Shown here piece by piece: positions 1,343-27,976 of a stretch of DNA of 32,647 bases (position 1 is the first letter of the stretch; every line of letters begins with the position of its first letter). The position numbers and the translations under genes were made by a program. Source of the stretch: Luteitalea sp. Lineage in GTDB: Bacteria > Acidobacteriota > Vicinamibacteria > Vicinamibacterales > Vicinamibacteraceae. The notes below the pieces were generated by a model that did not search any database, had not been told where the DNA came from, and worked only from the letters and a program-made list of their open reading frames with translations. Location of the stretch: positions 1 through 32,647 of the forward strand of contig WHTT01000073.1 of the NCBI GenBank assembly GCA_009377605.1, given 5' to 3'.

Positions 1343-1352
1343 GGCCCGTCAC

Positions 1353-1559: not shown

Positions 1560-1569
1560 GAGTTTTTAG

Positions 1570-2176: not shown

Positions 2177-2186
2177 ACAGGATTGT

Positions 2187-3242: not shown

Positions 3243-3286
3243 GACGTCGCGGCCTCGAGAGCGCAGCATGGAGGATTCGCAGCCGT

Positions 3287-4886: not shown

Positions 4887-4921
4887 AAGGCAGGGCGGGG
4901 TCGATTCTGCCGACACGTGAC

Positions 4922-11450: not shown

Positions 11451-11477
11451 GCTTGGGATTTGTCTCCCAAAAACACT

Positions 11478-11566
11478 GAGACCGGCCTCGCAGCCGGTCT
11501 CGCAGCCTGCTTCCGAAGAAGCAGGGGGGATAAATTAGTAACAGGATACCGCCAAGTTTGGTTCCT
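11478..11566 (+). other. Tandem stem-loops between helicase and NYN genes
   Basis: Stem 1: GAGACCGGC (11478-11486) pairs perfectly with GCCGGTCTC (11493-11501), 6-nt loop. Stem 2: CCTGCTTC (11506-11513) pairs perfectly with GAAGCAGG (11518-11525), CGAA loop. A G-run and an AT-rich piece follow, then a weaker dyad (CAGGATACC ... GGTTCCTG) at about 11541-11566. There is no clear U-tract, so a simple rho-independent terminator is not convincing. Attenuation, RNA processing or a small structured RNA are alternatives. Confidence 0.6.
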
Positions 11567-11618
11567 GTCAAAGGTCTCGCGTCGGTCCAGGGAGGTCGGT
11601 GAAGACGGAGCTGGGTTC

Positions 11619-12239
11619 GTGGCAAACGTCAACGTGTACGTCGACGGCTTCAACCTCTACTACGGCGGGCTCAAGCGCACGCCGTACAAATGGCTGGACC
11701 TTGCGAAGCTCTGTCAGATCATGCTGCCGCAGGACGTCGTGCAACACATCTACTACTACACCGCCCGCGTCAGCGCTCGCCCGCACAATCCGTCAGCGCC
11801 AATGGACCAGCAGGTTTACCTTCGTGCGCTACGAACGATTCCGAATCTCTCAGTCACGTACGGGCACTTCATGACTCATTCGGTTCGCATGGCGCTCTCA
11901 CGCGTGATACCGCCTCAGCAGGTGTGGGTCGACAAGACCGAAGAAAAGGGCTCAGACGTGAATCTCGCGACACATCTCGTGCGCGACGCGTTCCAAAAAC
12001 GCTTCGAGTTGGCTGTACTCGTCACGAACGATTCCGACCTCGCAGAACCAGTGAGGATAGTGACTCAAGAACTGGCCCTGCCCGTCGGCATCTTGAATCC
12101 TCACCAGTATCACAGCCAAGTCTTGAAACGGCTCGCGACGTTCGTGAAGCGGATTCGACAGTCAGCCCTGCACGCAAGCCAGTTTCCGGTGACACTCGCC
12201 GACGAGAAAGGTATTTTTCACAAGCCATCTTCGTGGTAG
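11619..12239 (+). CDS. NYN-domain (LabA/DUF88-like) PIN-fold nuclease
   Basis: A 206-residue protein from GTG 11619, which has GGAG 8 bp upstream. The frame is open further upstream, but that part is the stem-loop region and has no domain character. The NYN signature is complete: YVDGFN (Asp 9), EEKGSDVNLATHL (Asp 113), LVTNDSDL (Asp 138, Asp 140). These acidic residues form the metal-binding RNase centre of the NYN/PIN-like fold. Family knowledge: RNA (sometimes DNA) cleavage, often in defence loci. It stands between the helicase and the SIR2 cassette on the same strand. Role here is unproven: effector nuclease or processing enzyme. Confidence 0.85.
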   Translation: MANVNVYVDGFNLYYGGLKRTPYKWLDLAKLCQIMLPQDVVQHIYYYTARVSARPHNPSAPMDQQVYLRALRTIPNLSVTYGHFMTHSVRMALSRVIPPQQVWVDKTEEKGSDVNLATHLVRDAFQKRFELAVLVTNDSDLAEPVRIVTQELALPVGILNPHQYHSQVLKRLATFVKRIRQSALHASQFPVTLADEKGIFHKPSSW

Positions 12240-12270
12240 CGATTGCTGAGGCCGAGCCAATGCCAGAGAT

Positions 12271-12283
12271 GCTTGGCCCAAGC
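12271..12283. promoter_or_regulatory. Perfect 6-1-6 dyad upstream of the winged-helix gene
   Basis: GCTTGG-C-CCAAGC is a perfect palindrome with a single central base, too tight to form an RNA hairpin, so a protein-binding site is more likely than a terminator. It lies 80 bp before the winged-helix start in the 124-bp gap after the NYN gene. Nothing else is evident in that gap. Confidence 0.35.
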
Positions 12284-12363
12284 GAATGAAGTCACATCCG
12301 CGTTGTTATTCAAGCGGCCGTACGCGAGGCGGCAGGGTAAGGATGATCGTTTCTGGAGGCTAC

Positions 12364-12696
12364 ATGACGGCAGAAGGTCGCATTGAACAATTGTTGGGTT
12401 GTCTTGTTCAAGTAATCGGGCGCACGGCAATACCGGAAGATCGCGTGCGCGAGATTGTCGGCACGGCGTCAAAACAAGTTCGTGCTTTCAACCTCTGTGA
12501 TGGCACCAAGACGCAAACAGACATCCGTCAGAAGGTCGGTCTTGATGCCGGAAACTTCAGCCGCACTGCCCGACGATGGGTCGAACAAGGTGTCATGTTT
12601 GAGATTGGCGACGCCGGCAACTCAAAGCTCCTTCACATCTACCCGCTCAGCAAATCTCAGAAGACAAAGGCAGCCCGAACTCGGAGGAAGAGGTGA
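12364..12696 (+). CDS. Small winged-helix DNA-binding protein
   Basis: A 110-residue protein. The middle reads as a winged helix: CDGTKTQTDIRQKVGLDAGN, then FSRTARRWVEQGVMFEIG, i.e. helix-turn-recognition helix followed by a wing, like MarR/ArsR-type domains used on marker-type DNA sites. It ends in a very basic tail (KTKAARTRRKR). ATG 12364 is preceded by GGAGG only 4 bp away. ATG 12343 is an alternative. Its TGA overlaps the GTG start of the SIR2 gene (GTGA). I do not recognise a named family. Likely roles are a repressor of the downstream toxic genes or a DNA-targeting subunit of the SIR2 protein. Confidence 0.65.
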   Translation: MTAEGRIEQLLGCLVQVIGRTAIPEDRVREIVGTASKQVRAFNLCDGTKTQTDIRQKVGLDAGNFSRTARRWVEQGVMFEIGDAGNSKLLHIYPLSKSQKTKAARTRRKR

Positions 12697-13736
12697 AGCT
12701 GGCGTCGGGCTCCCTGCAGACCGCCCTCATTCTTGGCGCCGGGGCAACGCGTGGAGCGATCGGCCACGTTTTACTGAACAGGAAGCGTCTGAAGCCGCCT
12801 TTAAATGGAGACTTTTTCGACGTCGCGGCCACGTACGCACGAGCGAAAGGCTCCGGCACCAGGAAGCGCGTCGACCATCTCCTGGCGGTGGGAGCGGAAC
12901 TCGCCCTGGGCCGAAACCCGACTCTTGAAGAAGCGTTCAGCCTTCTCTACATCGCTAAGGATTTCCCGGAGATCTATAAGTCTGGACCTGGCCCAAAACC
13001 GGAGCCGGGAATAAGTTCCGAGATCGACGACTTTCTCGCGCTGCTGTTCGGCGTCCTCAACGAGGTCGACCGCAACTCGAATGGTCATACTGGATATGAC
13101 CGTCTCACTCGATCGCTTGAGTCTGGAGACTCAGTCCTCACGCTGAACTACGACACCTGTCTCGATTCAGCACTCAAACGGGCCGGGTGGGATCCAGCGT
13201 CGGGCTACGACCTGATCGGTGGCAAAGGCAAATGCAAGTGGGCTGGGCCCAACGCAGCAGTCTCCAACGCTAAAGGAGTCAAACTTCTGAAGCTTCACGG
13301 GTCGATGAACTGGTGGGTTCGTGGTTCGTCGGCCGACCTGACGAAAGTATTCTCGAAAAAGCCGACCCTGATCACGGGGCCCCGCAGGAACGGTCGTCAT
13401 GGGCTTCTGCGGCAGATTGTTCCTCCGATTCACGGTAAATTCTTCTCGCATCCTCACTGGGCCAAGCTGTGGAAGACCGCGTTTCAGGCACTCTGCACTG
13501 CTGACAGGATTGTTGTGATTGGATGCTCTATCGTCGACACCGACTTTCACCTCCAGGGCTTTCTGCGTCGCATGGTTAAGACGCGGAAGTCGTTACAGCG
13601 CTTTCGCGAAGCAGTTTTGGTGGATCGATCTGTCAAGGTCCGCCGCAAGTGGAAGAAAGTCTTGCGCGGCGCGGTTTCCAGCTCTCAAGAGTTCCCAAGT
13701 TTTGAGGCGTTTCTGGAGAAGGGTGCACGCACATGA
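12693..13736 (+). CDS. SIR2-like domain protein (putative NADase effector)
   Basis: A 347-residue protein with a full SIR2-type Rossmann pattern: ILGAGATR (15-20 core), LTLNYDTCLDSAL (Asn 152, Asp 154), KLLKLHGSMNWW (His 202) and VIGCSIVDTDFH (278-285). The Asn and His match the residues needed for NAD cleavage in defence SIR2 proteins such as ThsA and DSR types. No Zn-binding cysteine quartet of protein deacetylases is visible, which fits an NADase rather than a deacetylase. There is no extra effector or sensor domain, so activation must come from a partner. GTG start with GGAGG 5 bp upstream. It overlaps the genes on both sides by 4 bp. Expected outcome: NAD depletion and growth arrest of infected cells (inference). 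Confidence 0.85.
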   Translation: MKLASGSLQTALILGAGATRGAIGHVLLNRKRLKPPLNGDFFDVAATYARAKGSGTRKRVDHLLAVGAELALGRNPTLEEAFSLLYIAKDFPEIYKSGPGPKPEPGISSEIDDFLALLFGVLNEVDRNSNGHTGYDRLTRSLESGDSVLTLNYDTCLDSALKRAGWDPASGYDLIGGKGKCKWAGPNAAVSNAKGVKLLKLHGSMNWWVRGSSADLTKVFSKKPTLITGPRRNGRHGLLRQIVPPIHGKFFSHPHWAKLWKTAFQALCTADRIVVIGCSIVDTDFHLQGFLRRMVKTRKSLQRFREAVLVDRSVKVRRKWKKVLRGAVSSSQEFPSFEAFLEKGART

Positions 13737-13987
13737 CCGCTGAACAGATGGATAGAGGCATCAAGGCTCTGGAACGGATAGCCATGGCTTTGGCAGCCAT
13801 GTATGCCGAACAGCTGAAGGGCCTGGATCAACCTGCTAAGGCAAAACGCCTGAGTCACCTCGGCTTCTCCAACGTTCAGATCGCAAGTGCACTTGGCACA
13901 ACTGCGAACTCGGTCAATGTCTCTTTGCACAGAGCACGTAAACGACCGAAGGCATCTCAGAGATCGCGGCGGGAGAGGAAACAATGA
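13733..13987 (+). CDS. Small sigma-region-4-like HTH protein
   Basis: An 84-residue protein with an N-terminal helix (MDRGIKALERIAMALAAMYA), then HLGFSNVQIASALGTTANSV followed by NVSLHRARKR, the pattern of sigma-70 region 4 or LuxR-type HTH, and a basic tail (SQRSRRERKQ). There is no region 2, so it is not a sigma factor. It starts within the SIR2 stop (ATGA) and its own stop overlaps the methylase ATG (ATGA), so it is locked into the same translational chain. Possible jobs: transcriptional control of the methylase/effector balance, or DNA tethering of the SIR2 protein. Confidence 0.65.
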   Translation: MTAEQMDRGIKALERIAMALAAMYAEQLKGLDQPAKAKRLSHLGFSNVQIASALGTTANSVNVSLHRARKRPKASQRSRRERKQ

Positions 13988-16900
13988 CCAACCGTCGTCT
14001 CATCGAAGTCGCCTTCCCTCTCGAACAGGCGTCACTCGACTCGGTACACGAAAAGAACGTGCGCCACGGGCATATCTCGACCCTGCACATCTGGCCGGCG
14101 CGCCGGCCGCTGGCGGCCTGTCGGGCGGCGCTCATTGCCACGCTGCTGCCTGATCCCGGCACACCTGAGAAGCGGCGCGAGCTGTGCGAGCGCATCGGCG
14201 GGAAGATCGAGAAGGTCATCGAGAAGAAGAAGGGCCCAGGAAGCCGCGGCGAGGAGAAGATCGTCAAGAAGACGATTGGCGGCATCCTTCACTGGGGCCG
14301 CGAGACCGAGAACAAAGCTGACATCGACTTCTTCCGTCAAGAGATCCGGAAGGCGTTCGGCGGCCGTGCGCCGCGTGTGCTCGACCCATTCGCCGGCGGT
14401 GGCGCCATCCCCCTCGAGGCGATGCGCCTCGGGTGTGAGGTCACGGCCGTCGACATCAATCCGGTCGCCTGGTTCATCCTGAAGTGCACGCTCGAGTATC
14501 CGCAAAAGCTCGCCGGTCAGAAACGGCCGCTTCCGGACTTCGTTCGCTCGGACGCCGCCTTCATGGAGAGCTTCTTCAAGGCGCAGGGCTTCAAGGGGGC
14601 GATGCTCCGCAGCCAGCTGCGCAAGCTGGGGCTAAGTGACTCGAAGAAGAACGGGGCGCAGCAGCACTCGCTCAAGGACACGCAGACCGGAAAGGATGTC
14701 GACCTTTCAATCGAAGAACACACTCTGGAAGCAGATCTGGCCTGGCACGTCCGGGCGTGGGGCTGGTGGGTGCTGCGCGAGGCACGCCGCGAGCTGGCGC
14801 GCTACTACCCTGCCTACGCGGATTTCCAGCCAGTGAAGGACGTGGACGACTGGCGCCGACGGCACCCGGAGCAGGCACGACCGAGGCAGCTCGTCCCGAC
14901 TTTCGACGACGGAATACCCGACATCGATTCGCTGAACGCCGATTTCGGCGGCGACTACTTGGCCGACGGCCGCACTGCGCGCTGGGTAGCCAAGCCGGCG
15001 GTTGCCTACCTCTGGGCGCGGACCGTGAAGTGCAAAAACTGCCGCGCGACGATTCCCTTGTTGAAGACGCGTTGGCTAGCCAAGAAGGAGAAAAAGCGCG
15101 TCTTGCTTCACGTAGAACCGAACAGCGATAAAACCGGAGTCTCGTTCGGTATCGAGAATGACGTGCCAGTTGCCGGAGGCAACAACGCGCAGCGCCGCGA
15201 ACACGATAAGCGGCTTGGGCACGGAACAATGAGCCGCGCGGGTGCCTGGTGTCCGTGCTGCGGCAAACCCGGCACTGTAGCCATGGAACGCGAAGACCTT
15301 CGCACTGAGGCGTCGGCGCAGCGAATGGGTATCGCCTTGACCGCGGTCGTGATTGATGGGCCGAGCGGTAAGGAGTATAGGCTACCGACCGAGCTGGAAC
15401 TACGTCTTCCTCTGGTGCAGCCACGAGAGCTCGAGGAAACATTTCGGAGGCTTCCGTTTGGGATTCCGAACGAACCGTTTCCTGAAGGCGGGAGTCGCCA
15501 GACTGGTGGGTCGTCGTTTACTGCCTACGCTTACGGCAAGACAAGGTGGAGCACCGTATTTAGCAGTCGGCAATTGCTCTCCTTAGGGGCGTTCACGTAC
15601 TGGATCAGGAGCTCCCACGAGTCGGCCGCCAGCTTCGGGTACCCGACTGCCTGGACAGAAGCACTGCCTGCGTACCTGTATACGGCGCTTTCGCGTCTGG
15701 CTGATCGGAATAGTGAGTTCTGCACATGGCAACTTGGCGCGGAAAAGATTGGACATACATTCACACGCTTCGCGCTCCCGATAACATGGGACTTTGTCGA
15801 GGTCATGCCCTGGGCTGATTCCAGCGGCGGTTTCCTGCAAGCCGTCGATTGGGTAGCACAGGTAGCCGCACACCTTCTCGACATGGCAAGCGCACCACCG
15901 TCCCAGGTGGTATGCGGGTCCGCGATCAATGCTCGAGACAGCGGAGTGGATCTGATCATCACTGATCCGCCATACTACGATTCGATTCAGTACTCGGATC
16001 TGATGGACTTCTTCCTCGTGTGGCTACGGCGGACGCTGCATGGGTCTTCGAGCGAAATTGATCGCGTCTTGTTGGATCCGCTCGGACCCAAGTGGAATCA
16101 CGACCTCAATGACGGCGAGCTCATCGACGAAGCCAGCCGACACCTCGGAGACGCGGAACAATCACGCCGCGTCTATGAAGATGGAATGTCACGAGCTTTT
16201 AGGGCTTGCTTCGAAGCTCTCAACCCTAATGGCCGTCTTGTTGTCGTGTTCGCGAATAAACAGCCGGATGCCTGGGAAGCGCTGGTAGCGTCAATTACCC
16301 GAGCAGGCTTTTGTGTTGATGGCTCCTGGCCTATTCGGACAGAGCGTGCAGGCAGAATGCGTTCACTTGCATCGGCCGCCCTCGCTTCTTCGGTGTGGCT
16401 CATCTGTCGGAAGCGCGACGTCGCAGCGCGGCCTGGCTGGGACAATGTCGTTCTTGGCGAAATGCGCCGGACGATCAGCCAAGAGCTGCGAGAGTTTTGG
16501 GACGCCGGAATCCGGGGACCGGACTTCGTCTGGGCAGCCACTGGTCCTGCGCTTGAGGCGTACAGCAAGCACCCAGTGGTTAAGAAAGCGAACGACCCGG
16601 GCGAGACGATGTCAGTGTCAGAATTTCTGCGAGCTGTTCGCCGCATGGTTGTCGAGTTCGTCGTTGGCCGCGTCATCGGAGAGCTAACACATGGCCAGGC
16701 CGTAGTAGGCATCGAGGGCCTTACGGGCTTGGACGACGTAACGACCTACTACCTCCTTCACCGTCACGACTTCGGGATGAACGACGCACCGGCAGGCGCC
16801 TGCATTCTATATGCGCTCTCGTGCAATCTGTCGGAAGGCGATCTCGCGGATCGATACGCGATCCTCCTGCGCTCCGGCGGCGTTGAGCAGGGCGACGACG

Positions 16901-17304
16901 GAGAACCCGTCGAGGGAGACGCGGACGCCGAGGGCGATGTGACCGAAGGTTCTGGCAGTACGTTCAAGCTTCGACCGTGGAAGCAGCGCCGGCGTGCTGG
17001 ACTCGGGATGGCGACAGTGAACGCCTCCGTCACCGTGCCTCTCGTCGATATGGCGCATCACCTCATGCACCTCTGGATCGATGGTGACGTCCACAAAGTG
17101 AACGCGTACATCGACGAGCGCGGCCTCCGGCGAAGTGACACGTTCCGGCATGTCCTGCAGGCGTTGATCGAACTGGCGAAGGAGAGCAGCGACGAACGCT
17201 CTGTCCTCGAGCGCATTTCGAATCATCTTCAGGCCAGAGGTCAGGCACCGGCATCCCTTCGCGATGTCGGCTTGGGTGTAGCAGCGGTTGACGAACAGGA
17301 GTAG
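13984..17304 (+). CDS. DUF1156 adenine-specific DNA methyltransferase with Zn-ribbon
   Basis: A 1106-residue protein. The N-terminus IEVAFPLEQ, HEKNVRHGHISTLHIWPARRP is the DUF1156 signature. SAM-binding motif I is LDPFAGGGAIPLEA (134-145), followed by AVDINPVAWF. The catalytic DPPYYDSIQYSD is at 661-672, so target-recognition sequence is inserted between motifs I and IV. A Zn-ribbon (Cys 350/353 and Cys 423/426) lies in that insert. The C-terminal third continues with an acidic linker near 975-990. This matches the COG1743 adenine-methylase type with Zn-ribbon, predicted to modify host DNA. Length is in the usual range of about 900-1100. SD-like GGGAGAGGAA precedes the ATG. Stop is 2 bp before the DUF499 gene. 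Confidence 0.9.
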   Translation: MTNRRLIEVAFPLEQASLDSVHEKNVRHGHISTLHIWPARRPLAACRAALIATLLPDPGTPEKRRELCERIGGKIEKVIEKKKGPGSRGEEKIVKKTIGGILHWGRETENKADIDFFRQEIRKAFGGRAPRVLDPFAGGGAIPLEAMRLGCEVTAVDINPVAWFILKCTLEYPQKLAGQKRPLPDFVRSDAAFMESFFKAQGFKGAMLRSQLRKLGLSDSKKNGAQQHSLKDTQTGKDVDLSIEEHTLEADLAWHVRAWGWWVLREARRELARYYPAYADFQPVKDVDDWRRRHPEQARPRQLVPTFDDGIPDIDSLNADFGGDYLADGRTARWVAKPAVAYLWARTVKCKNCRATIPLLKTRWLAKKEKKRVLLHVEPNSDKTGVSFGIENDVPVAGGNNAQRREHDKRLGHGTMSRAGAWCPCCGKPGTVAMEREDLRTEASAQRMGIALTAVVIDGPSGKEYRLPTELELRLPLVQPRELEETFRRLPFGIPNEPFPEGGSRQTGGSSFTAYAYGKTRWSTVFSSRQLLSLGAFTYWIRSSHESAASFGYPTAWTEALPAYLYTALSRLADRNSEFCTWQLGAEKIGHTFTRFALPITWDFVEVMPWADSSGGFLQAVDWVAQVAAHLLDMASAPPSQVVCGSAINARDSGVDLIITDPPYYDSIQYSDLMDFFLVWLRRTLHGSSSEIDRVLLDPLGPKWNHDLNDGELIDEASRHLGDAEQSRRVYEDGMSRAFRACFEALNPNGRLVVVFANKQPDAWEALVASITRAGFCVDGSWPIRTERAGRMRSLASAALASSVWLICRKRDVAARPGWDNVVLGEMRRTISQELREFWDAGIRGPDFVWAATGPALEAYSKHPVVKKANDPGETMSVSEFLRAVRRMVVEFVVGRVIGELTHGQAVVGIEGLTGLDDVTTYYLLHRHDFGMNDAPAGACILYALSCNLSEGDLADRYAILLRSGGVEQGDDGEPVEGDADAEGDVTEGSGSTFKLRPWKQRRRAGLGMATVNASVTVPLVDMAHHLMHLWIDGDVHKVNAYIDERGLRRSDTFRHVLQALIELAKESSDERSVLERISNHLQARGQAPASLRDVGLGVAAVDEQE

Positions 17305-17306
17305 CG

Positions 17307-20300
17307 ATGAGCAAGCCGTCATGGAATCCCTGGCATCAGGTCGTTCAACTGCGCGAAGACCTTCGCACAGGAGAGCTGGCACTCAACGAATTCGCGGCCG
17401 ACATCTATGATGTCGCGCTCCGGAGCGGGAAGCGGCGCATCTACGAAGATCCAAAGGAGTTCTTCGCCCTCACCTACCCTACCTCTGCGCTTCTCGATCT
17501 CGCGCGAGACGTCGTCCGCCGCCTGGCAGGCAAGAATCAGAAAGCGGTCCGACAGCTCGAGCTCACCTACGGCGGCGGCAAGACGCACACGCTCATCACG
17601 TTGTTTCACCTCGTGACCGATCCAGCGTCGCTGCCGCAACTGCCGGCGGTCGACGAATTCAAAGCGCGGATCGACCTACCGCTGCCACCAACGCGGGTTG
17701 CCGTACTGCCTTTCGACAAATTCGATGCGGAGAAAGGGACCGAGGTCCGCGACCCGTCCGGTGACAGGCGGATGCTCCGGCAGCCCTGGAGCGCGCTCGC
17801 GTGGCAGCTCGCCGGCGCCGACGGCCTACGAATCCTGCACCCGGACGACAAACCGGAAGAACGGAGGACCGCACCCGCGGAGAACTTGCTGACGCTGCTA
17901 CTCGAGACGCCGCAGAAGGACGGGCGCTCCACCCTGATCCTGATGGACGAGGTGCTGATGTTCGCTCACGCGGCGGTCGACGCGGACCCAGCATGGCGCG
18001 AGCGTCTGAAGAACTTCTTCCAGGCGCTCACGCAGGCTGCAACCAAGGTCGACCGCTGCGCCATCGTCGCCTCGCTCCTCGCGACCGACGTCGCAAAGAA
18101 CGATGAGTTGGGCCGGGCGATCACCGACGAGCTGTACGCGATCTTCCGGCGCGAGCGAGAAGAAGGCGTGGAGCCCGTGAGCAAGAAGGATGTCGCAGAG
18201 GTACTGCGGCGCCGGTTCTTCACGCCGGAATCGCTCCAGACCAAGGAAGCGTTCCGGAAGCCGGTGATCGAGGCGCTGAACGGCATCGAAGTTCTTGACG
18301 ACGAAACAAAGAAATCGAGGAAAGACGAAGAAGTTCGCTTTGTGGCGAGCTACCCGTTCCATCCCGACCTCACCGAGGTGCTCTACGCGAAGTGGACGCA
18401 GCTCCAGGGCTTCCAACGCACGCGCGGCGTGCTGCGGACGTTCGCGCTGGCACTCCGCGAAGCGGAGAAGTGGGATACGTCTCCGGTCGTCGGCCCGAAC
18501 GTCTTTCTCGCGGCGCCGACCGAAGACGGTCTCTCTGAAGCCGCACGTGAGTTGACTCAGGTAGCGACGGTTGAGGAACACGAGGGCAAGAAGCAAGAGT
18601 GGTCATCGATTCTCGCAGGTGAGCTCGAAAAGGCTCGGCGCGTTCAACAGGAGTTGAGCGACTTACAGCATCGCGAGGTCGAACAGGCCGTGTTGGCGAC
18701 CTTCCTGCACTCGCAGCCCCCTGGTGCCCGCGCTCAACTCCGAGAACTGCTGGTTCTCGTGGGCGCAACCAGGCCTGACAAGATCACGTTGCAGAAGGCT
18801 CTTCGCGAGTGGTTCGACCGCTCCTGGTTCCTGGACGAAGCTGCAGACGCCGACACGAGAGCCACGAACGGCGTGAAGTCGCCGCCGGCTGTTTGGCGGT
18901 TGGGATCCCGTCCCAACCTGAAACAAATGCATGCAGACGCCGTCACGCGCGTCGCCGACCAGACAGTCGAAGAACACCTCCTTGGCGCCATTCGCAAGAA
19001 CAAGACACTAACCGCGACGGCCTCTCAGGCCGGTGCCCGTGTTCACAATCTGCCGGAAAGGCCGGGGATGGTGGATGACGATGGCCAGTTTCGGTATGTG
19101 GTGCTGGGACCATCGGCTGCATCAGAGTCGGGCAAGCCGAGCGCGGAAGCGAGGCGGTTCATCGAAGAGACGACCGCCGCCGACCGGCCACGCACGGAGC
19201 GGAACGCCATCGTGCTGGCAGTGCCTTCCAGAGAGGGCGTCTACATCGCGCGGACGGCCGTACGCGATTACCTCGGATGGCTGGCTGTGGACGACGCGCT
19301 CAAGAAAGAAGGGCACGAGCTTGATCTCGTACGCCAGCAGAATCTCGACTCCTACAGGAATGCGGCCTTGAAGCGCATCGGCGACGCCATTCAGCAGGCC
19401 TACTGCATTGTTGTCACGGTGTCTTCCGACAACGATGTGCAGGCTTTCCGCGTTCAAGTCTCCGATGCGCCGCTCTTCAATACGATCAAGGCGGATTCCC
19501 GCTCGCGCATCCAGGAGAGCGCAATTAGTCCGGACGCGGTACTGCCTGGCGGGCCGTACCAGCTCTGGCGAGACGACGAGGAATCTCGACCGGTTCGCGA
19601 TCTCGTCGGTGCATTTGCCAGATTTCCTCACCTGCCCAAGATGCTGAATCGTCAGGCGATCGTTGACACGATCATCCGAGGGTGCGAAGAGGGCTATTTC
19701 GTGGCGCGTCTCACTCGCCCCGACAAGTCCATTCAGACGTGGTGGCGGCAGGCGCCGCCTTCCGACGTGCTCGACGATCCCCAGCTTGATCTCGTGCTGC
19801 CCGACAAAGCCGAGCTTGTCAATCTGTCGCCCAACATTCTCCGGCCCGGCATGATCGATGATTTGTGGAGGATGCCACAGGTCACCGTTGCCACCATCCG
19901 GACGTTCTTCGACGGCGCCCATACGATTACCGTTTCTCGGGGAGGTTACGACGAGCCGATGCCGGTCCCCCGCGTGCTGGCCGACGTAGTCGATGGCGCC
20001 CTGCGCGCGGCGGTGAAAGAAGGATGGCTCTGGTTGACGTCAGGGCCGGCGAGTCTGCTTGGCGAAGATGTGCCGCCCGCGCTCGTTACCGCGGATACCG
20101 TGCTTCAGGCTCCGCCCGATCCGATCTCGCCGCTCGATCTCTTGCCGAACAGCCTCACCGACGCCTGGCAGAGTGGCAGAAGCGACGCGATGTCGGTAGC
20201 CGTCGCGCTCTCAAAGAAGGTGGGTGGAACCCTTCCTTGGCTCACGGTGCGCGAGGCCATTGACGCCGCCTTTCGCGCGCGGGTGCTGGATCGTGGCCCC

Positions 20301-20618
20301 GGCAGCGTCGACTGGCCGTGCGACTACTCCAACGCGTCGGCCGTTTCGATTGTCGTACCAGAGCCTGGCTCCGTTGCTGCTACGCTTCCGCCTGCAGCCG
20401 CCAGCGACACCCGAACCAGCGCTGCCACCGCACTCAAACCCAACCAGCTCCAGGATCTCGTCGACGTGCTCCCGGACTTAATCAAGATGACCGCGGGTCA
20501 CGAGCTAAGGTTCCGCTTGGCGGTCGAGATCAAAGGTAAGCAGCGCCCACACGACAAGCTGGTCGCTGCGGTCAATGAGCTGTTCAAAGACCTAGACGAC
20601 GAACTGCGGATTCAATAG
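17307..20618 (+). CDS. DUF499 AAA+ ATPase
   Basis: A 1103-residue protein. Walker A is TYGGGKTHTLI (Lys 92), preceded by a DUF499-type N-terminus (WNPWHQVVQLREDL, FFALTYPTSAL). Walker B is STLILMDEVLMFA (Asp 214, Glu 215). The long C-terminal half resembles other DUF499 proteins but has no motif I can assign. COG1483-type ATPases are strongly tied to DUF1156 methylases in predicted defence modules. The analogy to BREX/PglY-type P-loop proteins suggests a complex-forming motor or switch. ATG follows AGGAG and lies 2 bp after the methylase stop, so methylase and ATPase are one unit. Confidence 0.9.
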   Translation: MSKPSWNPWHQVVQLREDLRTGELALNEFAADIYDVALRSGKRRIYEDPKEFFALTYPTSALLDLARDVVRRLAGKNQKAVRQLELTYGGGKTHTLITLFHLVTDPASLPQLPAVDEFKARIDLPLPPTRVAVLPFDKFDAEKGTEVRDPSGDRRMLRQPWSALAWQLAGADGLRILHPDDKPEERRTAPAENLLTLLLETPQKDGRSTLILMDEVLMFAHAAVDADPAWRERLKNFFQALTQAATKVDRCAIVASLLATDVAKNDELGRAITDELYAIFRREREEGVEPVSKKDVAEVLRRRFFTPESLQTKEAFRKPVIEALNGIEVLDDETKKSRKDEEVRFVASYPFHPDLTEVLYAKWTQLQGFQRTRGVLRTFALALREAEKWDTSPVVGPNVFLAAPTEDGLSEAARELTQVATVEEHEGKKQEWSSILAGELEKARRVQQELSDLQHREVEQAVLATFLHSQPPGARAQLRELLVLVGATRPDKITLQKALREWFDRSWFLDEAADADTRATNGVKSPPAVWRLGSRPNLKQMHADAVTRVADQTVEEHLLGAIRKNKTLTATASQAGARVHNLPERPGMVDDDGQFRYVVLGPSAASESGKPSAEARRFIEETTAADRPRTERNAIVLAVPSREGVYIARTAVRDYLGWLAVDDALKKEGHELDLVRQQNLDSYRNAALKRIGDAIQQAYCIVVTVSSDNDVQAFRVQVSDAPLFNTIKADSRSRIQESAISPDAVLPGGPYQLWRDDEESRPVRDLVGAFARFPHLPKMLNRQAIVDTIIRGCEEGYFVARLTRPDKSIQTWWRQAPPSDVLDDPQLDLVLPDKAELVNLSPNILRPGMIDDLWRMPQVTVATIRTFFDGAHTITVSRGGYDEPMPVPRVLADVVDGALRAAVKEGWLWLTSGPASLLGEDVPPALVTADTVLQAPPDPISPLDLLPNSLTDAWQSGRSDAMSVAVALSKKVGGTLPWLTVREAIDAAFRARVLDRGPGSVDWPCDYSNASAVSIVVPEPGSVAATLPPAAASDTRTSAATALKPNQLQDLVDVLPDLIKMTAGHELRFRLAVEIKGKQRPHDKLVAAVNELFKDLDDELRIQ

Positions 20619-20710
20619 CGAGACCGGAACCGGTGATGCAGAGGTGGCCAAGATCTTCATCGGTGGGTCTCGGCAACTTTCGCGCCCAAACGCCGACGCG
20701 GAGCTATCCG

Positions 20711-21586
20711 ATGAAGCGTGATCCTGTTGAAGAGCATAAACACACCGCGACCGTCGAGGGCGTGTTAGCGCAGCTTGAGGGCGACTACTTCTATGACTAT
20801 GCGGCCTTTACCGGCAGCCTGCGGGAGTACGTTGTCCGAGCCCTCGAGGCCCGATACAAGTCAGAGCCGAACGAGCTGCACAAGCGCGCCTTTCTCCTGA
20901 ATGTCTACCGCGAGGAGTACACGGCGTACGAAGACCTTGGGGCGTTCATGGATGCGTTCCTTTCCATCAAAGGCGATCCAACGATCCTGCCGCTCCATCG
21001 GATGATTTCCTACGGCGCTGGCCAGGTGAAGCTCGGATCCGTCCTCGAACGACACCAGATCGATACCGGTGACGACCTCTATAACGGGCTCGGTCTGGCC
21101 GAGTGGATGCCCGCGAGCTGGTCGGAGCACCATCCGAAGATCGACCTGCAGAAGGTCCTTCGTAGAGCCTGTTATTTCCTCGTGGAGGATTGCTGGCCGG
21201 GACAGCGGGCGACAGGGGTCAGGGCGTTCAACAAGATCAAGCACGGGCTGGTGCTTGTGCCCGATGGGCGACCGTATGCGTCGAAGCTTCCGAGCGCGCC
21301 GGCCATCATCTTCGCGACCCACCCGAAGGATCCCGCATCGAAGGAGACTCCGGTCAGCATCTTGGCAATTCCGACGGAGCCAGAGAAGGTTGAAGAGCGG
21401 CTGAGGATCGTTCACTTCACGCAGTTCATGCTACGGATGTTCGCGATGCTGTACGTCTTGAAGCGATATCCGGCCGCCATCGGCGGACGGGGCCTTAAGG
21501 CGGACGCGTCGGTGTTCGGCTCGGAGCGGATGGTCGACGTCTTGGAATTCATGCGGAATTCATCTGAGACACCTTGGTCAAAGTAG
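20711..21586 (+). CDS. Defence-island protein of unknown family, possible HEPN-like
   Basis: A 291-residue protein from ATG 20711, with GGAG 7 bp upstream. A GTG at 20633 is in frame but adds low-complexity sequence. It is mostly helical. The segment RAFNKIKHG (Arg 171, His 178) looks like the R-x(4-6)-H site of HEPN ribonucleases, in the N-K-x-K-H-G style, directly followed by a strand (LVLVPDG). The N-terminal half has EGDYFYDYAAFTGSLREYVV. I cannot name the family. It sits 92 bp after the ATPase and 40 bp before a clearer HEPN gene, so the two may form a pair. Alternative: a structural partner with no catalysis. Confidence 0.6.
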   Translation: MKRDPVEEHKHTATVEGVLAQLEGDYFYDYAAFTGSLREYVVRALEARYKSEPNELHKRAFLLNVYREEYTAYEDLGAFMDAFLSIKGDPTILPLHRMISYGAGQVKLGSVLERHQIDTGDDLYNGLGLAEWMPASWSEHHPKIDLQKVLRRACYFLVEDCWPGQRATGVRAFNKIKHGLVLVPDGRPYASKLPSAPAIIFATHPKDPASKETPVSILAIPTEPEKVEERLRIVHFTQFMLRMFAMLYVLKRYPAAIGGRGLKADASVFGSERMVDVLEFMRNSSETPWSK

Positions 21587-21626
21587 GGAACTGATCACGC
21601 GACTTTTCTTGCGAGGTACGACCGAC

Positions 21627-22301
21627 ATGGCGCTACGACTGCGGGACGACTCTGACTTCAAGCCCTTATTGGACGCCCTCGCGGACGAACTCGTGATGGC
21701 CGCGATCTATTTCAAGCTGTATCAAGACTTGATCGAAGCGAAGAACGGCGAGTACGAGCGCGAGATCAGCCAATCGTGGACGTTCTGGTCACTGACATTG
21801 AGGTCGCTCATCGATGCGACCGTCTACCGGATCTGCAAGGCCTACGATCACAATAGGGATTCGTTGAATCTGAAGAACCTTCTCGAACTCGTGCGTGAGC
21901 GTCAGGACGTTTTCGATCGAGACACATTTCGCGAGCGGCTGAAAGACAATCCGTATGTCGACTCTCTCGCCAAAGACACCCGACTTCCTGACGCCGCACA
22001 GCTGGAGGCGGACCTGGAATTCGTGCAGGTAAAATCGAATCCCCTGGTCAAACGGCTGGTGACGTGGCGCGATAAGTTCTACGCGCACCGGGACCCGGCG
22101 CACGCGCTGGATCCGACCACCTTCGACCCATTGTTGGTGAGCGACGTGGAGACGTTGGTCAAAGAGGGCATGCGGATCATCAACTACTACAGCTCCCTTT
22201 ACGCCGCAACGACGCACTCGACCCAGATGGTCGGCCACGACGATTACCTGTCGGTCCTCAAGGCGGTGCGAAAGCGGTTGGAGCGATACGAGGCCGGGTG
22301 A
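21627..22301 (+). CDS. AbiU2-type HEPN domain protein
   Basis: A 224-residue all-alpha protein from ATG 21627, with GAGG 10 bp upstream. The C-terminal motif TWRDKFYAHRD (Arg 148, His 154, R-x5-H) and the upstream helix WSLTLRSLIDATVYRICKAYD match the AbiU2-like HEPN group. These are known or predicted metal-independent RNases of abortive-infection and toxin systems. It is the last gene of the island, followed by about 115 bp without a gene before a TTGACA promoter. No antitoxin (e.g. MNT nucleotidyltransferase) is adjacent, so its control may lie in the preceding protein or the larger complex. Confidence 0.75.
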   Translation: MALRLRDDSDFKPLLDALADELVMAAIYFKLYQDLIEAKNGEYEREISQSWTFWSLTLRSLIDATVYRICKAYDHNRDSLNLKNLLELVRERQDVFDRDTFRERLKDNPYVDSLAKDTRLPDAAQLEADLEFVQVKSNPLVKRLVTWRDKFYAHRDPAHALDPTTFDPLLVSDVETLVKEGMRIINYYSSLYAATTHSTQMVGHDDYLSVLKAVRKRLERYEAG

Positions 22302-22416
22302 AAGGGGAGTTGGCTCTCGCGATGGCCGCCGGCCAGTCGAGTTCGGAGGTAACCCGATGACTCGAATCTACTTATGAAGCGGTCTTCAAACAAATGAGCT
22401 CTCGGCTCAATCAACA

Positions 22417-22472
22417 TTGACAATTTGGTGGAGTGGCGATACGGTGTGCTGAACTGATGATAATCGATAATC
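22417..22472 (+). promoter_or_regulatory. Promoter with GATAATC direct-repeat operator (site 3)
   Basis: A perfect TTGACA (22417-22422) is followed after 17 bp by TACGGT (22440-22445), a weak -10. GATAATC twice in tandem (22459-22472) begins 13 bp after the -10, the same distance as from the TATGAT box to the operator at site 2. The ATG of the PQQ gene follows 14 bp later. The position suggests repression of a short-leader transcript. Confidence 0.6.
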
Positions 22473-22486
22473 GATGCAATTTTCCC

Positions 22487-24290
22487 ATGCGCCTATACAA
22501 CGGCCTGCCCCTACCGGTCGGCTTCCGATTCGTGGCACGAGGGACGATGCTGCTCGCGCTCTGCATCGGGATCGCCTGCGCGCCGGTCGCGCCGCAGGGG
22601 GCGAGCAATGGCCGGCCCGCGCCCGCCGAGCGCGGCACCGCCGCGGCACAGCACGTTACGTGGAGCGACTACGGTGGAGGGTCGGACTCGTCGAAGTACG
22701 TCGCGCTCGGACAAATCACCAAGGCCAACGTCGACCAGCTCGAGGTCGCCTGGACGTATCCCACCGGAGATAACAACTCGTACCAGTTCAATCCGCTCAT
22801 CGTCGACAACGTGATGTACGTCCTGGCGAAGAACAACTCCCTGGTGGCCCTCGACGCAACGACCGGCAAGGAGATCTGGATCCACGGGCGCCTGCGCGGA
22901 ATCGCCAGGCGCGGGATCAATTACTGGGAAAGCGCCGATCGCCGGGATCGGCGGCTGATCTTCCAGATGAACAACTTCCTTCAAGCCATCGACGCCGACA
23001 CGGGCAAGTCGATCCTGACCTTCGGCACGAACGGCCTGGTGGATCTGAGGGAAGGCCTGGGTCGCGATCCAGAGACGCTCACGCGCGCGCAGTCGAACAC
23101 GCCCGGGCGCATCTTCGAGGACCTCCTTCTGATGGGATCAGCCACCGGCGAGGGCTATTTCTCGACGCCCGGGCATCTGCGCGCGTACGACGTCCGCACG
23201 GGGAAGATTGTCTGGACCTTTCATACGATTCCGCAGCCGGGCGGGCTTGGCTATGACACCTGGCCGAAGGACGCCTGGCGGTACGCGGGCGGCGCCAACA
23301 CGTGGGGTGAGATGTCGATCGACACCGAGCGCGGCATTGCCTACTTTCCAACCGGATCGCCGACCTACGATTTCTACGGCGCCGATCGGCGTGGTGCGAA
23401 CCTCTTTGGCAACAGTCTGCTCGCCCTGGATGCCCGCACCGGGAAGCGCCTCTGGCATTTTCAGACGGTCCATCACGATATCTGGGACTACGACAACACC
23501 TCGGCGCCCCAGCTCGTGACCGTGCGCCGCCAGGACAAGACCATCGACGCCGTCGCGATGGCCACCAAGCAGGGCTTTCTGTTCGTCTTCGATCGAGTCA
23601 CCGGTACGCCAGTCTGGCCGATCGAAGAGCGACCGGTGCCGCCGAGTAACATGCCCGGCGAGGAGGCGTGGCCCACGCAGCCGTTTCCCACGGCGCCTCC
23701 ACCGTACGCCCGCCAGATTTTGACCCCCGATGCCATCACACCCTATTTGCTGACCCCGAAAGAGCACGCCGAGTGGAAGGCGCGCATTGCCCGGGCGCGG
23801 ACGGGGTTGTTCACACCGCTCTCCACGCAGGAGACGATACCCGTACATCATGAGCCCGCCGTGGTCCTGGATCGTCGCTTACGACCTGAACGCAGGCACG
23901 ATCAAATGGAAACAGCCGCTCGGGACCGACCTGCACGCCGCGGCAGAAGGCGGGAAGGACACGGGCATGCCGCGCGGCTCCCAGAGTCTCGGCATGATCG
24001 TGACGTCGAGCGGCCTGGTCTTCGCGCCGGCGAAAGACGGCAAGATTCGCGCGTATGACGCGGACACCGGCGACGTGCTGTGGACCGCCGATCTGCCCAA
24101 CGGTCCCGAGGGCATTCCTGCGATGTTCGAAGTCAACGGACGTCAGTACCTGGTGGTCTGCGCCACCACGCCCCTGACGTGGGGCCGCCAATCCACGGAA
24201 CGAGATGAGATGGCGGAAGGGCCGGAGGCCCGCACCAAGGGTGGCTACGTGGTATTTGCGCTGCCCGCCAGCAAAGGAGAATCGCAATGA
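22487..24290 (+). pseudogene. PQQ-dependent dehydrogenase with internal deletion and frameshift
   Basis: The N-terminal part from ATG 22487 has a signal or lipoprotein-like segment (MLLALCIGIACAPVAP) and PQQ propeller blades (WSDYGGGSDSSKYVALGQI, VALDATTGKEIW, LLALDARTGKRLWHFQTVHH, DIWDYDNTSAPQLV, WPIEERPVPPSN) up to GLFTPLSTQETIPV at about 23841. In this family the sequence then continues with a GGANWGG-type blade. Here it jumps straight to YIMSPPWSWIVAYDLNAG in another frame, which runs to 24290. The middle region is missing and the two halves are out of frame, so the N-terminal frame ends in nonsense at 24058. Frames total about 600 codons. Without a programmed event the product lacks its last blades. 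The original role would be periplasmic alcohol or sugar oxidation. Confidence 0.8.
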
Positions 24291-25186
24291 CGGACGCGCT
24301 CAACCGACGACGCTTTGGCAAGGCCCTCGTGATGGGGCTCGCCGCCGCCTCACAGATCGTGGCGCGCGCAGCACCGCGCAGGCTCGAAGCCGGCCATACG
24401 GGGATTACCTGGGGGTTCCAGCCGGCCGATGCCGAGCAGGCCATCAAGGACGTTGCGCAACTCGGCTTTCAGGCGTTCGAATCGTTTGGGAACGTCCTCG
24501 AAGCGTGGGAAGCCAAAGGTGGTCTCGACAAGGTGCTGGAGGCAGCCCTCCTCCCGTTGCACTCGGCGTACTGTCCGGTGGATCTCACCGACACGACCAA
24601 GCGCAAGGAGGAGATCGCGAAAATGGTCCGCTGGGGCCGGCTCATCAAGAAATGCGGCGGGTCGGTTGCCGTCATCGGGCCCAATGGCGTCGAGCGCGAG
24701 ACGTACGATTTCAACGCGCATCGCGCGCACATCGTCGAGGCGCTGAACGAGATCGCCAAGGCGCTCGATGACATCGGCGTGGTCGGCGTCCTCCACCAAC
24801 ACACCGATACTTGTGTCGAAACGCGGGAGGAGACCTACGCGGTCATGGAAGCCGTCGACACGCGTTACGTCAAGTTTGGTCCGGACGTGGGACAACTCCA
24901 GAAAGGCGGATCGGATCCGGTGAAGGTCGTCAAGGACTTCTTACCGGTCGTTCGTCACGTCCACCTGAAGGACTACGACGGCGGCGAGCACTACCTTGGA
25001 TACTGCCCGCTCGGACAGGGCCAGGTCGACCTCACCGCCATCGTGGACGCGCTGGATGGGTCCGGCAACGATCTAGTGATCATGGCGGAGCTCGATCCGT
25101 CGAAGAACATGACGCTCGCGCCGTTCGAAGCCGCGACGATCAACAGAGCCTACCTAGAAAAGCTCGGGTACAGCTTCCGGTCATAG
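24287..25186 (+). CDS. Tat-exported sugar phosphate isomerase/epimerase-like TIM barrel (IolE-like)
   Basis: A 299-residue protein. The Tat motif NRRRFGKALVMGLAAAS starts it. The barrel has ITWGFQPADAEQAIKDVAQLGFQ, LHSAYCPVDL, GVLHQHTDTCVETREET, YVKFGPDVGQLQKGG, VRHVHLKDYDGGEHYLG and GQGQVDLTAIVDAL. This matches the AP-endonuclease-2/xylose-isomerase-like family that includes inosose dehydratase (IolE), with Glu/Asp/His metal ligands. Substrate is unknown. An inositol- or keto-sugar-type reaction fits the dehydrogenases nearby. ATG has AGGAG 8 bp upstream and overlaps the PQQ gene stop (ATGA), showing the ancestral operon was PQQ dehydrogenase then isomerase. Confidence 0.87.
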   Translation: MTDALNRRRFGKALVMGLAAASQIVARAAPRRLEAGHTGITWGFQPADAEQAIKDVAQLGFQAFESFGNVLEAWEAKGGLDKVLEAALLPLHSAYCPVDLTDTTKRKEEIAKMVRWGRLIKKCGGSVAVIGPNGVERETYDFNAHRAHIVEALNEIAKALDDIGVVGVLHQHTDTCVETREETYAVMEAVDTRYVKFGPDVGQLQKGGSDPVKVVKDFLPVVRHVHLKDYDGGEHYLGYCPLGQGQVDLTAIVDALDGSGNDLVIMAELDPSKNMTLAPFEAATINRAYLEKLGYSFRS

Positions 25187-25235
25187 GCCATTCACTTCGC
25201 GCACGGTGTCCTCCACCCGGTGCGCGCAGACCGTG

Positions 25236-25290
25236 GTAGGGCCGCCTCGCCGATTTCTAGGTAGGGCCGCCTCGCCGAGGCGTCCGTCAC
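25236..25290. repeat. Palindromic intergenic repeat, family A, two copies (one truncated)
   Basis: GTAGGGCCGCCTCGCCGA appears at 25236-25253 as a half copy, then again at 25261 as GTAGGGCCGCCTCGCC followed by GAGGCG, forming a CGCCTC/GAGGCG hairpin (25268-25282). It is the inverted relative of the repeat at 1353. It occupies most of the 129-bp gap between the isomerase and the next SDR. Confidence 0.75.
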
Positions 25291-25315
25291 CTCTTACTCA
25301 TGGCACAATTCGGGC

Positions 25316-26047
25316 GTGGCTCAATTAGACGGGAAGGTCGCTCTTGTCACGGGCTCGAGCCGAGGGATCGGCCGCGCCATTGCTCTGGCCCTCGCGCGGG
25401 CCGGGGCAAACGTCGTCGTGAACTTTCGAGCGCGCTCCACAGAGGCTCACGATGTGGTACGGGAGATTCAGCAGCTCGGACGAGACGCTCTCGCGATTCA
25501 GGCCGACGTCTCCATCGCCGCCGACGTCGTGAGACTCGTTCGAGATGGACACGACCAGCTTGGCGCGATCGACGTGTTGGTGAACAACGCGGGCATCTCG
25601 CGTCCACAGGCGCCGGAAGAGATCACCGAGCGAGACTGGGACGAGCTGATGACCGCGAACTTGAAATCGTGCTTCCTGGTCACGCAGGCCGTCCTGCCGG
25701 CGATGCAGCGCCGCACATGGGGACGAATCATCAACCTGTCGTCCGTTGCTGCGCAGATTGGCGGCGTCGTGGGCCCTCACTACGCCGCGTCCAAGGCCGG
25801 TATGCTGGGCCTCACACGCTTCTACGCGAGCCGGCTCGCGCGCGAGGGGATCACCGTGAATGCCATCGCGCCGGCGTTGATAGAGACCGACATGGTGACG
25901 TCCAATCCCAACGCGCGACCCGATCGCATCCCCGTGGGGCGCTTCGGGTCCGTCGACGAAGTGGCGGACGTCGCCGTCATGCTCGCCTGTAACGGCTACA
26001 TCAACGGCCAGACCATCAACGTCAATGGCGGCTGGTTCCTGACCTGA
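25316..26047 (+). CDS. Short-chain dehydrogenase/reductase (SDR), FabG-like
   Basis: A 243-residue SDR with VTGSSRGIGRAIALALARAG, VLVNNAGISRP, NLSSVAAQ, YAASKAGMLG (Tyr-x-x-x-Lys) and the end GQTINVNGGW. NAD(P)-dependent oxidoreductase of unknown substrate. The start is GTG, with no Shine-Dalgarno. CACAAT at 25304-25309 lies 6 bp before the GTG, the same arrangement as CATAAT before GTG 7614 of the helicase, which suggests a leaderless transcript. An 11-bp near-duplicate of the start (ATGGCACAATT at 25300 and GTGGCTCAATT at 25316) is present but the first is out of frame. Confidence 0.9.
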   Translation: MAQLDGKVALVTGSSRGIGRAIALALARAGANVVVNFRARSTEAHDVVREIQQLGRDALAIQADVSIAADVVRLVRDGHDQLGAIDVLVNNAGISRPQAPEEITERDWDELMTANLKSCFLVTQAVLPAMQRRTWGRIINLSSVAAQIGGVVGPHYAASKAGMLGLTRFYASRLAREGITVNAIAPALIETDMVTSNPNARPDRIPVGRFGSVDEVADVAVMLACNGYINGQTINVNGGWFLT

Positions 26048-26090
26048 TCGGTCGTCAACCAAGGCCCTGTGCAGGGAGGCAGCAGAAACC

Positions 26091-27047
26091 GTGCGAGTCG
26101 TAGTCATCGGTGGAACTGGACACCTCGGAACGTCTCTCGCGCCACGCCTGGTGGAGGCCGGGCACGACGTGACGTGCGTGAGCCGGCAACAACGAGAGCC
26201 TTATCACGCGCATCCAGCCTGGACGCGGGTGAGGCATGTCGAGCTGGACCGCGAGGCCGCAGAAGCCGACGGCACCTTCGGTCAGAGGATCGTTGACCTG
26301 CAAGCAGAGGTCGTCGTCGACTTGATCTGCTACACGCTCGAGAGCGCGACGCACCTGGTCGACAGCCTGCGCGGTGTCGTGCAGCACTTCCTCCACTGCG
26401 GAACGATCTGGGTGCATGGTCCCAGCGCACGGGTGCCAACGACCGAGGCCGAACCGAAGCACCCCCTGGGTGACTACGGCCGCCGCAAGGCAGCAATTGA
26501 AAGCTATCTCCTGGAACAGGCGCGCGCTGGCGGCTTTCCGGCAACGCTGCTCCATCCCGGCCATCTGGTCGGACCCGGCTGGGTGCCCATCAATCCGGCT
26601 GCCAACTTCAACGTGCAGGTGTACTCGGACCTCGCCACCGGACGCGAGCTCCTACTGCCACACCTCGGCATGGAAACGCTGCACCACGTGCACGCCGATG
26701 ATGTGGCGCAGGGGTTCCTACAAGCGATCGGCAATCGTCACGCCGCCGTTGGTGAGAGCTTTCACGTCGTGTCGGCGGCTGCCTTGACCTTGCGGGGCTA
26801 TGCCGAGCACATGGCCGCATGGTTTGGCCGCGAGCCGCGTCTGCGATTCGTGCCTTGGGATGATTGGCGTCGCACGGCTTCCGACAAGGACGCGGAGGTG
26901 ACATACAACCACATCAGCCACTCGTCACACTGCAGCATCGAGAAAGCGCGGGCCCGCCTGGGATACGCGCCGCGCTACAGCTCCCTCGAAGCGGTGCAGG
27001 AAGCGGTCACCTGGCTGATGGACAACAACCTCATTCGCCGTGATTGA
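26091..27047 (+). CDS. NAD-dependent epimerase/dehydratase (extended SDR)
   Basis: A 318-residue protein. VVVIGGTGHLGTSLAPRLVEAGH is the Rossmann motif (GxxGxxG), HCGTIWVHG carries the active-site region, DYGRRKAAIE provides Tyr-x-x-x-Lys, and LLHPGHLVGPGW plus HHVHADDVAQGFLQAI are typical of nucleotide-sugar epimerases and related dehydrogenases. GTG start has GGGAGG 11 bp upstream. It follows the SDR by 43 bp and its stop overlaps the TTG start assigned to the next gene. Likely acts on a sugar or sugar acid rather than a nucleotide sugar, judging from the neighbours (inference). Confidence 0.88.
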   Translation: MRVVVIGGTGHLGTSLAPRLVEAGHDVTCVSRQQREPYHAHPAWTRVRHVELDREAAEADGTFGQRIVDLQAEVVVDLICYTLESATHLVDSLRGVVQHFLHCGTIWVHGPSARVPTTEAEPKHPLGDYGRRKAAIESYLLEQARAGGFPATLLHPGHLVGPGWVPINPAANFNVQVYSDLATGRELLLPHLGMETLHHVHADDVAQGFLQAIGNRHAAVGESFHVVSAAALTLRGYAEHMAAWFGREPRLRFVPWDDWRRTASDKDAEVTYNHISHSSHCSIEKARARLGYAPRYSSLEAVQEAVTWLMDNNLIRRD

Positions 27048-27968
27048 GCTTGCACCTTGGAGACCGACCTCTGAGCCCGGCTGAAACCAGCAGCCCCCTG
27101 AATCGGCGCCACTTCCTTGCCGCGGGTGTCCTCGCTCCCCTTGCGCTCAACGCTCAGCGCCGGCGCGTCCAGACGCCACCGCCGTTCACCACGTCGATCA
27201 ACATCGAGATCATGTTCGACCGATCCCTGCCGAAGAGCGAGCGGATTCGGGCGGTGGCTGCTCAACAGGTGAAGGCCTACAGCTTCTGGCGTGCATCGGC
27301 CGATGAACAGGAGGCGATGCTGGACGTGCAGCAACAGACCGGCCTCAAGTGCTCCTGCGTCGTGGGAAGCGGGGAGACCGGAAGGACCTCCGGCCTGACC
27401 AGGCCGGGCGCCGAACAGCAATACCTCGACGAGCTCTCGCTGGGCGTTCGGACGGCGCAGCGCTTTGGCGGCGCGGACGCGATCATCTTCCCCGGCGCGC
27501 GGCACGACGACATTCCCCTGGGAGGCGCAGCGCGAGAACCTGATTCAAGGGCTCCGCAAGGCGGGAGACCTCGCCGTGGAACACGGCATCTACTTGGTGC
27601 TCGAGCCACTCAATCGTGTCGAGTCACCAGACATCGCGATCCTCACCGCCGAAGCCGCGTTCGACGTTGTCAGCGCCGCAGCCCACGAGCACGTGAAGGT
27701 GGACTTCGACATCTACCACCTGCAGCTGAGCGAGGGCAACATCATCAACAACCTCAAGGTCGGCTTGGAAAAAGGCTGGATTCGCCTCGTGCAGATTGGG
27801 GATGTTCCGGGCCGTCTCGAGCCCGGCACGGGAGAGATCCACTATCCAAACATTTACCGGACGCTTCGCGAGATGGGCTATGACGGCTACGTCGACTCGG
27901 AGCACGGTACCTCGTCCACTCCAGAGCATGCGATTCAGGTCGTCAAACAGATGGCGTTGGAGAGCTGA
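27044..27968 (+). pseudogene. Hydroxypyruvate-isomerase-like TIM barrel, Tat signal, broken by a 1-nt frameshift
   Basis: The first frame (from TTG 27044) has LNRRHFLAAGVLAPLAL (Tat signal), SINIEIMFDRSLPKSERI and up to IIFPGARHDDIP. The second frame takes over with WEAQRENLIQGLRKAGDLAV, LVLEPLNRVESPD, VKVDFDIYHLQLSEGN, VQIGDVPGRLEPGTGEI and YVDSEHG to 27968. These match the Hyi/OtnI-type hydroxypyruvate isomerase family on both sides. Removing one C from the CCCC run at 27515-27518 gives an unbroken reading (DDIPWEAQREN). Catalytic Glu residues (LEPLN and DSEH) are present. The break may be a real mutation or a homopolymer sequencing error. Otherwise the protein looks intact at about 307 residues. 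Confidence 0.85.
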
Positions 27969-27976
27969 GCGAAACC

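Follow-up and report, generated by a model that had tools for sequence, protein, structure and literature searches.

An AbiU2-type HEPN gene and an orphan gene beside an Hma defence operon of Luteitalea sp.

Are the defence genes carried by an anti-phage operon controlled by their host system, or only carried along with it? The locus described here lets this be asked directly. In the window, i.e., the whole stretch of 32,647 nucleotides that was analysed, the gene of a DUF499 ATPase is followed by two further genes, the first of which is called P1 below and the second of which encodes an AbiU2-type protein. The initial annotation had taken them for a tandem pair of HEPN or HEPN-like genes, possibly a heterodimeric RNase or an effector with its regulator. 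Both reading frames that it named are present and are supported as real genes, since their third-position GC (0.76 for P1, 0.78 for AbiU2) fits that of the neighbouring core genes (0.71-0.75).

The Hma operon and its variable cargo

HmaA, HmaB and HmaC, all three named as such by PADLOC, occur together in the order A-B-C, and the window thus carries an Hma defence (anti-phage) operon (Table 1); the DUF499 neighbour recognised in the initial annotation is confirmed as HmaC. The Walker A motif of this ATPase already begins at residue 89 (residues 83-89 in 10 close relatives), too near the start of the protein for a HEPN domain to precede it, and the domain that is fused to DUF499 in part of the Type-1 BREX-related members is accordingly absent from the window HmaC.

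Table 1. Features of the Hma locus. Positions refer to the window, except in the last row, where they refer to a plasmid record.
Feature	Position	Strand	Evidence
HmaA, SNF2-type helicase with N-terminal XRE-like helix-turn-helix	7593..11450	+	PADLOC HmaA E 1.4e-154; helix-turn-helix matches residues 11-62
NYN-domain protein (PADLOC HEC-09), A-B gap cargo	11460..12239	+	PF01936 E 1.3e-8; HEC-09 E 6e-41
Small winged-helix-like protein, A-B gap cargo	12286..12696	+	MarR_2 E 0.014, weak, under cut-off
SIR2-like protein, A-B gap cargo	12693..13736	+	SIR2_2 E 1.5e-7, over cut-off
Small sigma-region-4-like helix-turn-helix protein, A-B gap cargo	13733..13987	+	Sigma70_r4_2 E 4.1e-6, 26.8 bits against a cut-off of 25.7
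HmaB, DUF1156 DNA methyltransferase	13984..17304	+	PADLOC HmaB E 9e-112; Pfam DUF1156 E 9.2e-18
HmaC, DUF499 AAA+ ATPase, no fused N-terminal HEPN	17307..20618	+	PADLOC HmaC E 5.3e-75; DUF499 E 2.4e-19
P1, 291-aa orphan protein	20711..21586	+	No family over cut-off in Pfam, NCBIfam or PADLOC; one distant relative
RAFNKIKH codons, proposed HEPN site of P1 (residues 171-178)	21221..21244	+	Not above chance; R replaced by K in the relative
HEPN_AbiU2 protein, 224 aa	21627..22301	+	PF18734 E 3.5e-37
RDKFYAH codons, predicted HEPN ribonuclease site (R148, H154)	22068..22088	+	Alignment of 16 members
DUF499 system of plasmid pMIC7113.06, circular-record start inside	L168 (NC_019742.1) 20512-28806 and 1-4907		PIN, VapC and AbiU2 between core genes

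The XRE-like helix-turn-helix at the start of HmaA (7593-7800 in the window) recurs among its relatives, where a strict pattern found it in 18 of 42, the window included, and several more were recognised by eye; some of these 42 sequences end at a contig edge. Scans of the window for promoters and terminators gave nothing above shuffled sequence, and Rfam gave no match. Beyond AbiU2 lies a quinoprotein gene (22487-24283) whose reading frame is broken by a frameshift near 23860, and the C-terminal fragment of a similar gene is found at 1615-2016.

The gap between HmaA and HmaB (11460-13987) holds a cargo of four genes, the last three of which overlap at their ends. The genes of related loci were compared in two sets. 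The first comes from 11 genomes with an HmaC relative of about 48-66% identity, with upstream DNA at nine loci and downstream DNA only at two, and their gene content was read by eye among the matches listed. A wider scan gave 80 Hma loci from many phyla, two of which are the same as two of the 11, giving 89 distinct loci besides the window. The Hma core genes recur across these 89 loci, while the genes that lie between them differ, and none of the four A-B gap genes of the window was matched at E <= 0.01 in the related loci.

The extent of this variation was tallied over the 80 loci of the wider scan, counting gaps for which both borders were found and ORFs of at least 100 aa; some of these ORFs will not be genes, since they were chosen by length. 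Of 38 A-B gaps, 24 were filled, as were 37 of 64 B-C gaps. Among the 25 commonest families listed for the 109 gap proteins are AAA_21 (13), Schlafen AlbA_2 (7), nucleotidyltransferases (3), Ymh (2), Fic (2) and others, and the PADLOC names listed on the same terms include HEC-01A and HEC-01B (12 each). Downstream of HmaC, 44 of 45 ORFs were scanned, with one of 2051 aa omitted. HEPN-related families other than AbiU2 are represented by Ymh, which is counted as HEPN in PMC3710099 (two proteins in the A-B gap and one after HmaC), and by one HepT-like protein. A pair of genes of about 420 and 210 aa recurs between HmaB and HmaC (L061, L062, L095, L097, L101, L112, L116, L126 and others) and apparently corresponds to AAA_21/HEC-01A with HEC-01B. 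Three family relatives were also inspected for an unoccupied insertion site, an attempt that was abandoned because their best matches to the flanking dehydrogenase were 35-51% identical and too distant to be trusted as the same place.

The AbiU2 protein and the orphan gene before it

The WRDKFYAHRD motif, which the initial annotation had read as AbiU2-type, is real and lies inside a PF18734 match of 128.2 bits against a cut-off of 26.8. The best start of the gene is the ATG at 21627 rather than the TTG at 21609. In an alignment of 16 members of the family, from which the G184 (L155) match was omitted on account of its unresolved reading frame, H154 is the only invariant residue (16/16) and R148 is present in 13 of 16; the window protein keeps both in an R-x5-H arrangement. 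By its sequence, therefore, this protein is a member of the HEPN_AbiU2 family with an intact predicted ribonuclease site. A single-sequence structure model reached a pLDDT of only 38.5, and the assignment of its fold thus rests on the Pfam match. Close relatives were absent from the viral contigs and phages that were searched. Toxicity cannot be assumed for the protein, because lactococcal AbiU2 alone left the growth of E. coli uninhibited, as described in PMC3985639.

P1 presents a different case. Its best start is the ATG at 20711, with GGAG seven bases upstream, and 92 bases separate it from HmaC, all genes being on the + strand. The initial annotation had drawn attention to RAFNKIKHG as reminiscent of a HEPN site; the motif is indeed present at residues 171-179, but its presence carries no signal here. 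At least one R-x4-6-H occurs in 88% of 5000 shuffles of P1, as it does in 59 of 84 similarly long ORFs of the related loci, and in the sole relative found R171 is replaced by K, while H178 (KH) is kept. The motif is therefore uninformative as a HEPN site, and an R-x6-H in a single orphan protein should not be read as one.

Searches of Pfam and NCBIfam gave no HEPN family match for P1, and those of Pfam, NCBIfam and PADLOC no antitoxin family. When P1 was aligned by hhalign with the AbiU2 profile, the probability was 0.2-0.3%, within the 0-0.8% of 20 shuffled copies; the comparison has low power, since even two groups of the AbiU2 family, taken as the positive control, scored no higher than 7.5%. 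The single-sequence model of P1 has a mostly helical look at a pLDDT of 36.2, a value which says nothing on its fold, because AbiU2, a sure family member, fared no better. A search of solved structures by sequence returned nothing usable for either protein. One half of the proposed tandem thus stands, AbiU2 being HEPN by PF18734, while a HEPN nature of P1 is not supported by these sequence comparisons.

Relatives of P1 are correspondingly rare. Among 396 genomes of the window's phylum, three had a match at E <= 0.01: that of the window itself, G022 and G238. The last of these matches (L002) was discarded, because it runs through two stop codons and shares its position with other reading frames. 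The G022 protein is hence the sole relative, with a pairwise E of 2e-8 over 112 residues and an E of 6.8e-5 when the two single sequences were compared by hhalign. Its gene stands by itself at L135 8639-9430, with no AbiU2 gene adjoining; its neighbours, named by eye, are sirtuin-like and radC-like housekeeping genes. G022 alone yielded a relative among four genomes of its class, and none was found in 292 genomes of a second phylum, in 398 of a third, in 11 further genomes or records, or in viral contigs, plasmids, phages and genome contigs, although these empty searches are weak evidence, since a two-sequence profile is thin. The best reading of P1 from its sequence is that of a putative orphan accessory protein beside AbiU2.

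AbiU2-type genes in other DUF499 loci

Starting from AbiU2 itself, genes of the family were located in 8 genomes of the window's phylum out of 247 surveyed, in 5 of the 249 surveyed for a second phylum and in 2 of 72,556 plasmid records. Three of these 15 loci, the window included, are DUF499 loci. Under a uniform model with the window left out, at least two of 14 would fall in DUF499 loci by chance with a probability of about 7e-5, a rough figure from approximate inputs (0.17 DUF499 places per genome, 23 kb, 4.5 Mb) that is no proof of a specific link, because the model ignores the clustering of defence genes.

Within the Hma loci, G214 carries an AbiU2-family gene in its B-C gap, encoded on the opposite strand (PF18734 E 1.8e-14), and this arrangement is repeated in G270, a member of the same genus. 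A phmmer search with the window protein alone missed both of these relatives, which only the profile or Pfam found, and their profile scores are circular, both sequences having entered the profile build. The independent evidence is PF18734 for G214, and likeness to G214 together with the aligned site for G270. A weak match between HmaB and HmaC in L081 (E 3.3e-4) is below the cut-off and lacks the R.

The closest relative among the plasmid records, at 45%, belongs to the cyanobacterial plasmid pMIC7113.06. Its annotated order runs DUF499, PIN, DUF1156, record start, VapC, AbiU2 (a hypothetical protein in the record) and SNF2 helicase, the last two genes overlapping, and matches to HmaC, HmaB and HmaA agree with the DUF499, DUF1156 and SNF2 annotation. 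The system is of another subtype, since PbeA and PLD-helicase models score above HmaA for its helicase; a separate small gene before DUF499 also matches HmaA. AbiU2-type HEPN genes do recur, then, in DUF499 loci. The genes concerned are diverse, and their places and orientations differ, a diversity which is as compatible with general clustering in defence islands as with a functional link.

P1 does not share in this recurrence. It is absent from the 89 related Hma loci, by single sequences as by the two-sequence profile, and from the stretches fetched around 13 other AbiU2 genes (11 from genomes and 2 from plasmids). As its relative also stands alone, the pair is not conserved, and the suggestion that P1 and AbiU2 form one unit finds no support in the gene-neighbour survey, which never found the pair conserved next to DUF499 in this sample, an outcome that the initial annotation had itself named as refuting its reading.

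Interpretation and comparison with known systems

The account that we favour, with moderate confidence, is that of an Hma operon with exchangeable defence genes, placed in the A-B gap and after HmaC, among which a predicted AbiU2 RNase is one and P1 a putative orphan accessory. The position of the window gene counts against it, as this AbiU2 sits after HmaC and not inside the operon. From the protein families we infer a ribonuclease activity of AbiU2, an abortive outcome and any regulatory link to HmaABC; AbiU2 would probably serve as a backup abortive effector. HmaABC would modify and restrict DNA, as its families suggest, while AbiU2 would most likely be held silent and set free once the DNA-level defence is triggered or failing; the freed enzyme would then cut cellular or phage RNA, and the infected cell would be stopped. 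A separate AbiU2 could in this manner replace, in trans, the fused HEPN domain of other DUF499 ATPases.

Against this stands the somewhat unlikely reading that AbiU2 and P1 are defence-island passengers with no working link to HmaABC. It is consistent with the locus survey, in which neither gene is kept in the 89 related Hma loci save for the diverged AbiU2-family members of G214, G270 and, weakly, L081. It is also consistent with the 11 loci found from the AbiU2 side that gave no Hma gene match within the fetched flanks, and with a Nitrosococcus relative that lies in a defence region with no DUF499 annotated in the stretch read. However, AbiU2-type genes occur in DUF499 loci oftener than the uniform model allows, and in pMIC7113.06 such a gene once lies inside a DUF499 locus of another gene order. 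At the opposite end is the stronger and quite improbable proposal that, in the Hma clade whose HmaC lost its fused HEPN or never possessed one, a separate AbiU2-type HEPN has been recruited repeatedly and is under the control of HmaC in trans, with P1 as an adaptor here; were this control to be real, a DNA restriction system would switch on an RNA-cutting suicide enzyme.

Two further readings tie P1 to AbiU2 directly. It is unlikely that P1 acts on AbiU2 as an antitoxin or regulator in a two-gene, toxin-antitoxin-like module: the gene lies directly 5' of AbiU2 with 40 bases between them and plausible ribosome sites on both, and the lactococcal AbiU system described in PMC3985639 likewise has two genes, yet P1 accompanies none of the 13 other AbiU2 genes, its relative lacks an adjoining AbiU2, and no antitoxin family matches it. 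The least probable of all is a heterodimer of AbiU2 with P1 as a diverged HEPN protein. Such a partnership would recall the HEPN family Bxe_C0808, which PMC3710099 lists as 'in operon with AbiU2', and would suit the helical look of the poor model and the KH kept in the relative; it is opposed by the missing family match, by a profile comparison at the level of shuffled P1 (if of low power), by a motif at chance frequency whose R is K in the relative, and by a pair that is not conserved.

In the published view of the DUF499-centred BREX-related systems (PMC12839542), methylation labels self DNA, and whatever lacks the label is restricted by the ATPase and the helicase; for many Type-1 members the N-terminal HEPN of the ATPase, first noticed in PMC3710099, is proposed there as a suicide ribonuclease of last resort. 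Hma loci are already known to harbour defence genes, some of them with antiviral activity, under the name of Hma-embedded candidates (HEC; preprint 10.1101/2024.01.29.577857, as cited in PMC12988326), and AbiU2 in an operon with the Bxe_C0808 HEPN is also known already. What is new here is AbiU2 as a further Hma-carried defence gene, the kind itself having been described; AbiU2-type HEPN genes are thereby placed among Hma/DUF499 cargo. A paper describing AbiU2 as Hma cargo was not found in the literature searched, which excludes bioRxiv and most subscription journals.

The window resembles the Hma system described in PMC8565338 and the DUF499-centred systems of PMC12839542 in carrying the published set of HmaA, HmaB and HmaC, and differs from Type-1 systems in that its HmaC lacks the HEPN fusion reported for many members, the HEPN being encoded separately. 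Its AbiU2 is like other members of PF18734 in a score far above the cut-off and in the R-x5-H, and unlike them in lying after an Hma operon, behind an orphan gene that is absent from the other AbiU2 loci examined. The likeness to HEC consists in defence-like genes that occur with Hma, of which the NYN gene of the window scores as HEC-09; in contrast, P1 and AbiU2 lie after HmaC with no PADLOC HEC match, whereas the AbiU2 genes of G214 and G270 do lie between Hma genes. Bxe_C0808, compared by its description in PMC3710099 only, is similar to P1 as a gene that adjoins an AbiU2 gene. Finally, many plasmid DUF499 relatives are annotated as 'Swt1 family HEPN', and these Swt1-type fusions share with the window a HEPN linked to a DUF499 ATPase, there within one chain, here encoded by its own gene and from a different HEPN family.
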